DNA of 11,133 nucleotides, from NCBI GenBank assembly GCA_016934535.1, contig JAFGSQ010000038.1, forward strand, positions 1 through 11,133, given 5' to 3'. Position 1 is the stretch's first letter. Every line of letters starts with the position of its first letter. Source of the stretch: a candidate division WOR-3 bacterium. GTDB lineage: Bacteria; SDB-A. The translations under genes and the position numbers were made by a program. Below the pieces are notes generated by a model that saw nothing but the letters and a program-made list of their open reading frames with translations, ran no database searches and was not told the DNA's origin. Of the stretch, positions 1 through 10,678 are shown in pieces.

Positions 1-1245
1 CTCAACATTCTCGATCCGGACGGAGACAAGGTTGCGCACGGGCTTTTTGTAGTTCACGCAGGACCCGGCGCAGAACAGACGGGCGACACATTTGATATAT
101 GGTCGCACAAGGCGGATGCGAGGGAGCTCTGTGAGCTCATTAGAGACAATTACGACCCTGCCTGCCCTTACATAATTTCAAACGGATGCACCCTCGGAGT
201 ATATTCAATGGAGCCAGAAATGAACGAAGACGGCTCACTCGTCACGGTCGGCGTTTTTTGCCATGAATTCTGTCACGTTCTCGGGGCGCCAGACCTTTAC
301 AACACCGACGACGGCAACTCTGTCGTCGGCAAATTCGAACTTATGGACGCCGGAAGCTGGAACAGGCTTTCAGGAGAACAGCCCGGGACAAGACCCGCCC
401 ATCCTTCACTGTGGATAAAAATGCTTCTGGGTTGGGTTGTTCCCGATTCAATAGAAAGAGACGTCACGGGAGTCCCCGACATAGTGAAATCGGCCAGTCT
501 GGACGCCGCAGGAGGAACCGTATATCCCAGAACATGGAGAGTGCTCCGGAATCCAAACGGAGTTGACTGGACGGACACGCATCCGGGAACGGGCGAGTAT
601 TTTTTGTTTGAGAACAGGGCAAAAATCGGCTTTTTCGAAACGGCTCTTCCAGACGAAGGCATAGCCGTGTGGCATGTTGACGAGTCGAGACCGGACAACA
701 ACGACCCGGAAAAAAGACTTGTCTGCCTGGTCAAGGCCGACGGGGATCCTTCGACGACGGCGTCAGGAAGCGAGGGCGACCTTTTCAGCAGTAATACCGC
801 TGAACTCGGATCCCGCGATGTCCCTTCTCCAAACATGTGGGACGGCGTTTCGAGCGGAGTGAAAATGAGAAACATATCCGCGTCTTCGCAGTTGATGTTT
901 GCCGACATAGAGGCCGGACCGGTTCTTTTCGGCAAAGTTTTTTCCTATCCGAATCCCTTTGAAAAGAGATCCGGCGGAGATGTGTGCACGATTAAATACC
1001 AACCCCTTGGCAGCAGGGCAGAAGGCATGTTTCCCCTTTTCAGAATCGTAATCTTCAACCTGGCCGGCGAAGTCGTTCGACTCCTCGACGACCCTTCAGA
1101 GATATCACCTGTTTCGAGAGAAGCAGTTTGGGACGGAGAAAATGAATACGGAGACGAGGTCTCCAGTGGAATGTATCTGTACGTGATAGAATTGATACCG
1201 TTTTCGGAAGAGAGAAATTTCGGAAGGATAACGTTCATTCACTAA
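1..1245 (+). CDS. M6-family metalloprotease domain protein with C-terminal sorting domain (5' end missing)
   Basis: The frame is open from base 1, so the gene starts outside the window; 414 residues are visible. It is a secreted zinc peptidase of the M6 (immune inhibitor A-like) group. Residues 20-40 carry the HAGPGAE and IWSHK segments typical of this family. The zinc motif HEFCHVLGAPD (HExxHxxGxxD) is at residues 88-98, with the Met-turn segment FELMDAGSWN at 112-121. A later FENR...GIAVWHVD stretch also fits M6. From about residue 308 (YPNPF) to the end there is a FlgD-like Ig/sorting domain with WDG and VSSGMY motifs, as used for surface export in type IX-like systems. An internal ATG at 208 is not the start, because it would cut off the conserved HAGPG region. 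The usual Gly in the zinc helix is Cys here (HEFCH). The stop is one base before the PorV-like gene, so the two are probably cotranscribed. Confidence 0.9.
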   Translation, partial: LNILDPDGDKVAHGLFVVHAGPGAEQTGDTFDIWSHKADARELCELIRDNYDPACPYIISNGCTLGVYSMEPEMNEDGSLVTVGVFCHEFCHVLGAPDLYNTDDGNSVVGKFELMDAGSWNRLSGEQPGTRPAHPSLWIKMLLGWVVPDSIERDVTGVPDIVKSASLDAAGGTVYPRTWRVLRNPNGVDWTDTHPGTGEYFLFENRAKIGFFETALPDEGIAVWHVDESRPDNNDPEKRLVCLVKADGDPSTTASGSEGDLFSSNTAELGSRDVPSPNMWDGVSSGVKMRNISASSQLMFADIEAGPVLFGKVFSYPNPFEKRSGGDVCTIKYQPLGSRAEGMFPLFRIVIFNLAGEVVRLLDDPSEISPVSREAVWDGENEYGDEVSSGMYLYVIELIPFSEERNFGRITFIH

Positions 1246-1246
1246 T

Positions 1247-2200
1247 ATGAAAAAAGCGACAATAACAACTATATTGATGTTGCTGATGAGCTCGCCTGCG
1301 TTTTCATTCAGCGCGGGGGTCACAGGCAGTACATTTTTAAAAATTGGAATAGGGGCGCGACCGGTCGCTCTCGGTTCGGCCTACACCGCTGTGTCCGACG
1401 ACGCCAACTGCATATTCTGGAATCCGGCCGGACTCGGACAGACTTACGCTCTCGGCGGGACCATTTCATTTCTAAATCTTTTCAAGGACGTCAATTACGG
1501 CGCCGGAGCTTTTGTAGTAAGGCTGAAAGCTCTGGGAGTGCTCGGGATAGGCGGTGCGTTTTTGAGCGCGAGCGATGTGAGAAGAGACGCTAACGGAACC
1601 GAGACGGGCACATTTTCCAACTACGATGCGATGTTTATCTTGTCTTTTGGCAGGGAAATTTACGGAGAGAACCTTTTCGGAGGTGTTTCCGTCAGGGGTA
1701 TCCAGAGTAAACTCGGAAACAGGACCGCGAGAACGGCCACACTCGACGGAGGAGTGCTTTTTGTGCCGCATCCTGTCCTGAGGCTCGGCGCCGCTCTTAA
1801 AAATGTCGGCCCAGGCATAGTTTTCATAAGCGAACGGGACCTTCCGCCCACTGAATTGCGGACTGGATCGGCTTTGGTCCTGCCTCTCAATCTCGAATCG
1901 TTCATTCTGAAGACGACATTGAGCGCGGACCTTGGTTTTTCAGAGTTTTCTAAAATTTCGGCAGGTTTCGGCGGCGAACTGACTCTTTTGCCTACGGATC
2001 TCGATTTGGCTTTTAAAGGTTTTTCTCTGAGGGGAGGATATCAGCCGGTCGAGAGGACGGGAGACTGGAGCGGATGGTCTTTCGGCCTGGGAGCAATGGT
2101 ACCGCTCGGAAAAGACAATTATTTTTCAATTGACGCGGTGCATTACTCTTACGGATACCTTGGGGGAGCCGACAGGGTCTCTTTCACACTTAAAATATAA
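1247..2200 (+). CDS. PorV/PorQ-family outer-membrane beta-barrel protein
   Basis: The 317-residue product has a signal peptide (about residues 1-20, MKKATITTIL then a hydrophobic stretch). The family hallmark lies at about 30-64: LKIGIGARPVALGSAYTAVS followed by DDANCIFWNPAGLG. The rest is glycine- and aromatic-rich alternating sequence expected of an outer-membrane barrel, ending in VSFTLKI. In type IX secretion, PorV carries sorting-domain cargo from the translocon to the attachment complex; related proteins occur widely in FCB and WOR-3-like bacteria. The ATG is one base after the TAA of the M6 protease. The nearest purine-rich site (GGAAGGA, about 1222-1228) is too far for a normal ribosome site, so translation is probably coupled to the upstream gene. 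The neighbouring sorting-domain protease suggests a carrier-cargo pair. The family call is firm; the exact paralogue (PorV, PorQ or another) cannot be decided. Confidence 0.88.
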   Translation: MKKATITTILMLLMSSPAFSFSAGVTGSTFLKIGIGARPVALGSAYTAVSDDANCIFWNPAGLGQTYALGGTISFLNLFKDVNYGAGAFVVRLKALGVLGIGGAFLSASDVRRDANGTETGTFSNYDAMFILSFGREIYGENLFGGVSVRGIQSKLGNRTARTATLDGGVLFVPHPVLRLGAALKNVGPGIVFISERDLPPTELRTGSALVLPLNLESFILKTTLSADLGFSEFSKISAGFGGELTLLPTDLDLAFKGFSLRGGYQPVERTGDWSGWSFGLGAMVPLGKDNYFSIDAVHYSYGYLGGADRVSFTLKI

Positions 2201-7621: not shown

Positions 7622-8806
7622 CTATTTGATGAGAGTTATCCTTTTCATAACGTTGGTCTTTTCTGAGCATAGCATCAGAAAATATGTACCTGAGGGCAGA
7701 GACGACAGGTCTAAATTTATTTCGCTCGTTCCTTCTCTCAATAGACCGGGAAAATCCAATTGTAATTTTCTTCCGCACAGATCCAACAATTCGATTTTTG
7801 CGTGCGAGCTTGAAGGCAGAAAAAACCGGATCATTATCCTTCCATGTGAAGGATTGGGAGTCAGGCTGAACGACGATTGAGGGCAGGTGAAAACAGGTTC
7901 TTCGACAGAAGTGAACAGACTGTCGAAAAGACTCTGCATTTTCACAGCGTTGACTGTCATTTTCTGGAAATCTTGACCCGCTGCAATGCCGTAGAAAATT
8001 GAAATTGAGTCGAGAGGTCCAAGGAAATAAGGACCTGCTTTTATGTAGACGGCGAAGCTTCCAGACGTGTCAGGGATAATGCCTGGCGCTGTCGTGTCAG
8101 CAAGTATCTCGTATAGATACACGTCTTCGTAAGGCATATCCTCGGGCCAGTGAAAACTGACGCCGAGGTGGGGAACATCACTCAATGTCTTGATTCCGAT
8201 GTATTCAGAAGGGTTGGGTCCGTCATAGAAATATGAAAGACCAAGGGAGTCTATGTACCCGCACCGGTCGTCGGTGTGGCTTGAATTCGTGACGTTAATG
8301 TCGGCGTAGAGACCGAGATATACCTGTTGATAATCATGCTCGGATTTGTTTTCGTATTCGTACTTGAAAATCAGAAAATCCGAGTAATCGGCTCTGGAGA
8401 AAGAAAAACATTTCCTGCGGGAAATTATTCCCGAGACGTGCTCAGAATCATCGAAGTGGTAATCGCTCGCGTACAGCGAGTCGCCGGTCCATTCCCATGC
8501 ACAGTATGAAATGAACCATTCGTTGATCATGTGTCAACACAGTTTGTTCGAAAGTACGACTGTATCACCTGATGACGTGAGAAAACCTATGCCGTGACAT
8601 CCCCTTAGAATGTGGTCCCGGCCTGAGCCGCCGGGGAATTCCAGCGATGAGTTTTCCCTGTTTCCTATGTCACCGTTCAAAGGGTCGAATCCGGTCCAGA
8701 GATTGTTGTTGTTGTGAAAACTGTCGAGAGGGGAAAATCGGCCGTCAGCAAAAAGAGACGGAGAAAAAAAGAAAGGTAAAATGAGAATAAAAGACAGTAT
8801 TTTCAT
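7622..8806 (-). pseudogene. exported sorting-domain protein interrupted by one in-frame TGA (nonsense, error or recoding)
   Basis: An ATG at 8806 with a very strong ribosome site (AAAGGAGG, five bases away) opens a frame with a signal peptide, MKILSFILILPFFFSPSLFA. It stops after 90 residues at a TGA (8534-8536, after SNKLC). The same frame continues at once (CAC, then ATG at 8530) for 302 more residues to the TAG at 7622. Neither half makes sense alone: the first has the signal peptide, the second ends in a sorting domain (LTPNPSHGRIMIRF, IELLDLCGRKLQ, LDLSSLPSGTYFL). The middle (EFPGGSGRDH, then GDTVVLSN) resembles N-terminal regions of large sorting-domain proteins in related phyla; I know no biochemical role. 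Re-initiation at 8530 would give an unexported fragment. A nonsense mutation or base error is most likely. Selenocysteine is possible but weaker, because no redox motif surrounds the TGA. Confidence 0.7.
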
Positions 8807-8870
8807 AGGTCCTCCTTTGAGCTTATTATTCCACAAAAAGAAACAAATGAACACGAAACGCTTAAAAATG

Positions 8871-9389: not shown

Positions 9390-9548
9390 TATTTTGACCG
9401 CTTGATAGACAAATATCCTGTTTTTATTTATTCTTAAAAATTGAAATTTCTCCACGAAACCCTTCATTTACTAAATTTACTCACACTTTGCGGACAGCAT
9501 CTTTCACGCCGGTGGATGTTGATTTTCTTGCAAGTGTCTGGATGAAAG

Positions 9549-9587
9549 AATAGGATGAGAGCCGCATATATCGGCTCTCATCCTATT
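9549..9587 (-). terminator. hairpin terminator after the selenoprotein gene
   Basis: AATAGGATGAGAGCCG (9549-9564) pairs perfectly with CGGCTCTCATCCTATT (9572-9587) around the seven-base loop CATATAT, a 16-base-pair stem. It begins six bases past the TGA of the minus-strand gene. The following U tract is weak on this strand (CUUUC), so it may act partly as a 3'-end stabiliser. Confidence 0.75.
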
Positions 9588-9815
9588 AATAGGTCACTGG
9601 ATTTTAATCAAAAGTTTTGAGTCGGTGTAATCCGGCGAACTGAGTTCGACTCTGTATATGCCAGAAGAAACTTCAGAGCCGAAATCGTCATTTCCGTCCC
9701 ACTCAAATTGTGCGTTCTCTGAGAGAGATCTGTTTACAGCGAGAGTTCTTATTGTTCTGCCGCTCAAGTCGAATATCCTCAGTGAAACGTCAGTGCCCGC
9801 AGTAAAGATTTCCAC
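9549..9815. repeat. direct repeat copy 1: sorting-domain coding end plus terminator hairpin
   Basis: These 267 bases recur at 10867-11133 with six differences by eye (about 98% identity). Two differences are in the hairpin and four in the coding part; all four coding changes are silent. Similarity on the left begins exactly at the base of the hairpin. It may continue beyond 9815, but the window ends within the second copy. Confidence 0.95.
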
Positions 9816-10649
9816 GGGTATGAAGGCTGTGCCGATGAATGGATTGGGATAGAAATTGCCGAGTCCGAAAGTCTTTGACATAACCGGCGAGGAAGGCGTC
9901 TCCTCTACGGCGTTAAGACCGCCAATTCCGATTTGATTGCTCTGATGAATGTATTTGGGTGATCCGTGTGTCTGAAGCCAAACGGCAAAATATATCGCCT
10001 GTTCATCGTAATGCCACCAAGAAGTGCTGAGTGTAAAAGGAATTGTGACCTCGAGAGTCTCGGGATAGGTTCCTGAAAATGTAATTGGGGTCCCGTTGTA
10101 ATTTGGATACATTTTTCTCGTAGGATAGTGGAATTCCGAAAAGTATCCATGTGCATAAGGCACCACTTTTGAGGCGGCGTCACAGTGCAATACAAACGGA
10201 CCGGCACCTATTGAAGCCTCAAGTATAAGAGTGACGAAAATATTTCCGGAATGCGTAGTCGGATCGAAATCGCCGTCGAGGAGGATTTCGAGATAGCAGG
10301 GTCTCGACATGGCTGTGTTGAACGAATTCTGAAGGTAAGTGTTATTGGGATAGAGGTTTATATATCCGTCCATGAAGGCGTCGGGAACTCCGCCGACTCC
10401 GTAAAAATTTTTCCGGCCGAGTTGATCGGCGTTGTAAAATGGATCGCTTGACCAAACATGATACTTTACTGCCGAAATACTGTCGCCTTTGTTTTCTATG
10501 AATGTGTTCTGCTGACCAGCATACTGATTACAATAGGTTCACTGAGAAGCCCCGTGGATTTCAAGTAAAGGTCTTCTCACAGCGGAAAACAGAAATCCCG
10601 ACATAAAAAGAATGCCGAGGATTCCGAGGACCAAAACATTCTTCTTCAA
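9594..10649 (-). CDS. probable exported selenoprotein: thioredoxin-fold (Omp28-like) UxxC protein with C-terminal sorting domain
   Basis: Read from a TTG at 10649, five bases after a strong AGGAGG site, the gene encodes 351 residues if the TGA at 10539-10541 is selenocysteine. Residues 1-23 are a signal peptide (MKKNVLVLGILGILFMSGF). Next come PLLEIHGASQ, TGA as residue 37, then Thr-Tyr-Cys40, giving U-T-Y-C where thioredoxin-fold proteins of this type have CxxC. The rest of the fold is present: KYHVW (62-66), DPFYN, RKNFYGVGG and the cis-proline loop GVPDAFMDG (Pro89). From about 265, YPNPF and the FlgD-like domain (IFDLSGRTIRTL, EWDGNDDFGSEVSSG) mark it for surface sorting. The likely role is an extracytoplasmic thiol/selenol oxidoreductase. 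The internal ATG at 10373 would remove the signal and active site. The alternative is a Cys-to-stop mutation; the nearby hairpin argues against it. The gene's final stop is also TGA. Confidence 0.75.
10496..10541 (-). promoter_or_regulatory. candidate bacterial SECIS element with its UGA codon
   Basis: On the minus strand the UGA (10541-10539) is followed after 21 bases by the loop GGUC (10517-10514). The loop is closed by UGCU (10521-10518) and AGCA (10513-10510). Weaker outer pairing is possible: GU/AC, then CUAUUGU (10536-10530) with ACA (10505-10503) and AUAG (10499-10496) around a bulge. A G-G-U apical loop about 16-37 bases after UGA is the known signature for SelB binding. As I recall it, E. 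coli fdhF has the same GGUC loop 18 bases after its UGA. The pairing was done by eye. Confidence 0.6.
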
Positions 10650-10678
10650 GTTTACCTCCTTGAATTTTTTATTCCAGT

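Follow-up and report, generated by a model that had tools for sequence, protein, structure and literature searches.

We found that the window, an 11,133-nucleotide contig of a candidate division WOR-3 bacterium, very probably carries a genuine Omp28/HBP35-like selenoprotein gene whose product would be decoded by SelB and exported by the type IX route as a surface UxxC thioredoxin. In what follows, G000 is the genome carrying the window (a MAG of 2.23 Mb, 100% complete with 3.9% estimated contamination), the window is its contig C38, and L-numbers denote loci. The gene occupies positions 9594-10649 on the minus strand and encodes 351 amino acids plus a stop. It starts at a TTG at 10649, and a Shine-Dalgarno sequence, AGGAGG (10655-10660, minus strand), can be read 5 nt ahead of it; the GGAGGTAAACTTG context of this element is likewise present in the paralogue L002. 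The 351-residue frame is open except for a single TGA at 10539-10541 (codon 37), which is directly followed by Thr-Tyr-Cys and, in all, by 314 sense codons before the terminal TGA at 9594-9596. Codon-position GC is about the same before and after the internal TGA. The hydrophobic stretch at the N-terminus (approximately residues 1-22, 10584-10649, minus strand), predicted as a helix over residues 3-17 with low pLDDT in the AlphaFold model, is a putative signal peptide. The first-pass annotation of this DNA had described the same start with its AGGAGG, the N-terminal signal peptide, and the in-frame TGA with the residues that follow it, and each of these features was recovered in our translation, the signal peptide as a hydrophobic stretch. 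It had also warned that automated calling from 10373 would lose the active site; indeed, translation with table 11 gives only one long ORF, of 259 amino acids, from the ATG at 10373.

A conserved UGA/Cys position and the selenocysteine machinery

A protein search of G000 identified three TGA-containing paralogues, two on contig C32 and one on C49, together with one on C43 that has Cys. With TGA translated as U, all four TGA genes of this genome share U-x-x-C at one position. Further U members (G001 C63; G002 C110 and C63; G003 C210 and C313) occur in genomes of the same genus and family, as do Cys members (G001 C34 and G003 C252a/b). Thus, TGA occupies the identical alignment column in at least nine members from four genomes, with Cys in the rest and long frames intact after the TGA. 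R25, E30, U/C37, C40, P89 and D94 are invariant in the family alignment, and conservation both spans and precedes the UGA. The invariant Cys40 (10530-10532, minus strand) is the putative resolving cysteine of the UxxC motif. TGA members were found in all four genomes of this phylum among those searched, and candidate division WOR-3 is assigned to Caldifarciminota in the NCBI taxonomy. A contig search returned one near relative only, a candidate division WOR-3 MAG. The homologues examined in distant bacteria have U or C at the residue-37 position without exception, with xxC after it, and Cys or TGA stood there in every homologue examined, as the first-pass annotation had predicted. In a tree of 22 sequences the Sec and Cys rows were interleaved and the window protein had its own branch; well-supported branches force at least two changes between Sec and Cys, most simply four. 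A distant Omp28-like gene, L072 (G060 C1:4779727-4780350), has TGA at UxxC and, judged by eye, a dockerin-like repeat replacing the sorting tail. The locus L171 in G212 was left out as a selenoprotein candidate because its TGA lies outside the active site.

A lone TGA in a MAG contig might reflect a sequencing error or a nonsense mutation in an ordinary CxxC gene, and one G003 member of a second family in the window (see below) does carry further stops. We give this explanation almost no weight and consider it refuted by the conservation of the TGA across the family: the same codon recurs in the nine or more members from four genomes with intact frames beyond it, and it is accompanied by a covarying hairpin and a full Sec machinery.

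The genome encodes the machinery needed to read UGA as selenocysteine. Both selA (505 bits) and selB (309 bits) scored over the cut-off in G000, on C53 after a tRNA-Sec gene. The Rfam tRNA-Sec model matched at the beginnings of both C53 and C71, and these two contigs probably meet at tRNA-Sec. The anticodon loop, CUUCAAA, gives the anticodon UCA. ARAGORN reported no tRNA on the sel loci, though the Rfam model matches there. The selD gene (361 bits; L064, C43:23941-24861, minus strand) has its own in-frame TGA at the catalytic position (GUAAK). All four components that the first-pass annotation had named (selA, selB, selC and selD) were therefore present; the wider selenoproteome of G000 was sampled by homology. 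Furthermore, selB was over the cut-off in G001, G002, G003 and G060. In G006 it was not over the cut-off, and this genome has only Cys forms among the matches examined.

These data also bear on whether the UGA could be a real stop, with a shorter protein made from the ATG at 10373, or could encode a standard amino acid through reassignment or suppression. Gene callers would indeed predict the 259-residue product, but it would lack the signal peptide and the entire active-site half, and the conservation across and upstream of the UGA would be left over. UGA is an ordinary terminator in G000 and ends the window gene itself, which argues against reassignment, while the UCA tRNA available for suppression is tRNA-Sec. 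We therefore regard these possibilities as very improbable. The conserved TGA/Cys column, the Sec machinery and the covarying hairpin support the reading that the first-pass annotation had proposed, in which UGA at 10539-10541 (minus strand) specifies selenocysteine as residue 37 of UxxC.

The hairpin lies at 10508-10523 (minus strand) and resembles a bSECIS element, with the core UGCU[GGUC]AGCA at 10521-10510 and the loop at 10517-10514. The loop begins 21 nt downstream of the UGA, and the stem is common to the nine TGA genes when these are placed in the UGA register. Pairs were counted by script in this register because a MAFFT gap broke that of the hairpin. Over the five inner pairs in the nine TGA genes, 42 of 45 cells were standard pairs, compared to 3-19 of 45 when one arm was slid. 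Compensatory changes occurred at four of the five pairs (U-A/A-U/C-G, C-G/G-C, G-C/A-U and U-A/C-G). Five of six Cys homologues have a single base pair at this site, the exception being that of G006 with four. The window copy is the weakest hairpin: its core has four perfect base pairs, an A-G mismatch lies outside them, and when longer stretches are folded the minimum-energy structure is a different one. Folding of the window region as a single sequence gave no excess over shuffles, the signal appearing only in the paralogue comparison, and an Rfam scan of the window found no family reaching its gathering score. The published bSECIS rule calls for an upper stem of 4-16 bp, a loop of 3-9 nt, a distance of 16-37 nt from the UGA, a G in the first two loop positions and an MFE of -7.5 kcal/mol or lower (PMC13188914). 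The stem, loop, G and spacing of the window hairpin fall within these limits and its MFE falls outside; most TGA siblings reach the MFE limit or nearly so.

Domain architecture, and proposed type IX export and function

The AlphaFold model of the window protein (pLDDT 86.6, pTM 0.64) comprises three domains. Residues 28-115 (10305-10568, minus strand) form a thioredoxin-like domain that matches HBP35 and 2axo. In alignment and model, helix 1 carries the UxxC/CxxC at its N-terminus and the proline stands in a later loop; this is the GVPDAF loop pointed out in the first-pass annotation, and its invariant Pro89 (10383-10385, minus strand) is the cis-Pro candidate. An Omp28/DUF1223-like beta-sandwich follows at residues 120-241 (9927-10292, minus strand; matched by 2axo and 2r2c), and residues 261-349 (9603-9869, minus strand) form a C-terminal domain of the type IX sorting kind, matched by FlgD_ig, PorU and PorZ. 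The sorting domain named in the first-pass annotation is supported by Pfam FlgD_ig (30.8 bits, cut-off 27) and by close homologues, which score 31-50 bits in TIGR04183 and so exceed its cut-off of 23; the window tail itself, at 22.9 bits, is 0.1 bit short. By structure, this tail matches the PorU C-terminal domain (Z 11.9, 2.0 Å over 91 residues) and PorZ (Z 9.3).

The core genes of the type IX system are present in G000: SprA (213 bits, or 428 with neighbours) and PorU (349 bits, or 479 with neighbours) both exceed their curated cut-offs, and the window itself encodes a PorV/PorQ family protein (1247-2200, plus strand; 126.6 bits). Because of these three genes, the export route, which the first-pass annotation had called type IX-like, appears on annotation evidence to be type IX itself. 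Directly before the PorV/PorQ family gene, at 1-1245 (plus strand), lies a gene for an M6-like metalloprotease with a sorting-type tail.

The protein might instead be a selenoprotein that stays in the periplasm or is released without surface anchoring. The borderline score of the window tail (22.9 versus 23 bits) and that of the TGA paralogue C32a (only 15.7 bits) would fit such a location. We consider it unlikely, since the sorting-domain scores of close homologues exceed the cut-off, the genome has SprA and PorU, and the PorU C-terminal domain can be superposed on the tail.

HBP35 of Porphyromonas gingivalis (5y1a) was the best structural match of the window model (Z 24.5, 12% identity over the alignment), with an rmsd of 11.5 Å that suggests a different domain placement. 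Like the window protein, it combines a thioredoxin-like domain with a type IX C-terminal domain; unlike it, HBP35 has Cys-x-x-Cys without Sec and comes from Bacteroidota. HBP35 has been reported as a surface hemin-binding protein on which growth under hemin depletion depends, with a thioredoxin activity in which insulin reduction requires both motif cysteines (PMC2907840), and its secretion has been attributed to the Por system (PMC3120885). By analogy, HBP35 provides a precedent for a surface thioredoxin whose reductase activity depends on the two cysteines of the motif. The same relative raises the possibility that the window selenoprotein mainly binds or reduces metal, heme or metalloid at the surface, with the Sec-Cys pair as a ligand or specialised site; there is, besides, no obvious reducing system outside the cell. 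This we hold to be possible but somewhat doubtful, given that insulin reduction by HBP35 needs both motif cysteines (PMC2907840) and that the Sec/Cys pair and Pro89, which are thioredoxin features, are invariant in the family.

We favor a surface thiol-disulfide oxidoreductase, and from sequence and structural models we infer its Sec insertion, location, activity, substrate and electron donor. SelB and Sec-tRNA(UCA) would recognise the hairpin 21 nt past the UGA and insert Sec at residue 37. The signal peptide would direct export of the chain by the Sec pathway, and the folded C-terminal domain would then guide its passage across SprA, the type IX translocon. PorU would cut the tail and attach or release the protein, leaving the UxxC thioredoxin domain facing outward. 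There, Sec37 may attack disulfides or other sulfur or selenium electrophiles, and Cys40 would resolve the selenenyl-sulfide.

Relation to known Omp28-like selenoproteins

This fold was already known to contain Sec, because an Omp28-related selenoprotein family to which the window family is related has been catalogued. GOS_C was described in 2008 from 74 marine sequences as a UxxC protein with a Trx-like fold (Zhang and Gladyshev 2008, PMC2398784), and a 2026 review equates it with NCBIfam NF045500, 'Omp28-related selenoprotein' (Table 1 of PMC13188914). Like the window protein, this family has a thioredoxin-like fold, a UxxC with Sec first and an Omp28-like domain. The window protein differs in forming a separate branch with a type IX tail, and it did not match NF045500 even at an E-value of 10 (cut-off 200 bits). 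Weak matches of 20-44 bits were given by the paralogue C32a, G003 C313 and the Cys paralogue on C43.

Across 386 genomes, no protein was over the NF045500 cut-off, and many sub-threshold Omp28-like genes carry a TGA. We read eight such loci: the active-site motif had U in six and Cys in two. Because four of the six U loci (in G107, G004, G139 and G068) also carry a TIGR04183 tail over the cut-off, the combination of Sec with a type IX tail is, on their sequences, a recurrent design found in at least four other lineages. The first-pass annotation knew of no described combination of Sec with this sorting domain. Regarding the literature searched this holds, as no description linking Sec with type IX export was found; the combination itself recurs beyond the window's lineage. 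The search likewise returned nothing pairing selenoproteins with WOR-3, selenoproteins with Omp28, or type IX secretion with WOR-3, and the single papers pairing selenocysteine with Omp28, type IX or WOR-3 appear unrelated, as judged by title and term counts.

Two other structural relatives were compared. The Omp28 models (PF11551, NF033782) do not match the window protein, PF11551 matching five of 16 window-family members, and classical Omp28 is named a lipoprotein and its model has no sorting tail; the Omp28 domain structure 2r2c aligns with residues 69-248 of the window model (Z 9.7, rmsd 2.5 Å over 116 residues). Agrobacterium AGR_C_4864 (2axo) shares the thioredoxin plus beta-sandwich arrangement (Z 19.3, 3.9 Å over 202 residues, residues 21-252), but the match ends before the sorting tail and the entry title does not mention Sec.

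The gene cluster and a second hidden gene

A direct repeat of 271 bp, 97% identical, links the 3' end of the window gene (9545-9815) to the right end of the contig (10863-11133). The latter copy (minus strand) is what remains of a tandem paralogue at the contig end, its 3' part coding for residues 279-351, and it is probably the missing 3' end of the TGA paralogue L002 on C32. That gene ends at its own contig end, no more than one base from the start of the C38 copy; for this reason C32 and C38 are probably contiguous, with an inferred junction, and three Omp28-like Sec genes would therefore stand in one array with a second family downstream. The repeat probably caused the contig break, and it suggests recent duplication or gene conversion. 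The same order of the two families as in the window is found on G002 C30.

The second family is represented in the window by another hidden gene (7622-8806, minus strand), with a TGA at 8534-8536, a Cys-Sec motif and a type IX tail; two ORFs, 8534-8854 and 7622-8530 (minus strand), are one gene split by this TGA. All eight aligned members in G000-G003 keep Leu/Ile-Cys-Sec (C-UGA), the G003 member with further stops carrying these within the matched stretch. Members also lie divergently beside tRNA-Sec in G000 (L063, C71 208-1392) and G001 (L107, C90 3705-4892), and the order beside L063 is tRNA-Sec, then selA-selB. Selenoprotein models gave no match to this gene, and none of the 119 selenoprotein families in the review (PMC13188914), compared by description, is like it. 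A structural model of its protein (pLDDT 68) is similar to the supersandwich domain at the N-terminus of glycosidases and phosphorylases (such as bacterial glucoamylase and GH116; Z up to 19.3) and not to thioredoxin. This looks like an undescribed selenoprotein family, but it is less secure than the window selenoprotein because the searches yielded no homologue with Cys and only the C71/C90 pair has a clear SECIS. An Omp28-type Sec gene of another lineage (L150, G004 C85:76030-76647) adjoins G004 C85:76996-77799, which resembles the C-terminal part of the second family within a 957-residue open frame without TGA and echoes the window gene order.

Bacterial selenoproteins are known mostly as cytoplasmic or periplasmic enzymes. 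Annotation would lose much of what is described here: it would truncate two nearby genes in the window, and the window branch escapes the curated Omp28 selenoprotein model. We think it somewhat probable that a set of selenoproteins is exposed on the cell surface of this lineage via type IX, comprising four or more UxxC proteins of the Omp28-like kind and two Cys-Sec family proteins with a glycosidase-like supersandwich, encoded partly in neighbouring expanding clusters, and that the lineage thereby performs extracellular selenium chemistry by a design present in several other lineages. Tandem Sec thioredoxin-like genes with a type IX tail would place reactive selenols at or past the outer membrane, which raises the questions of how electrons are supplied there and which substrates are acted upon.
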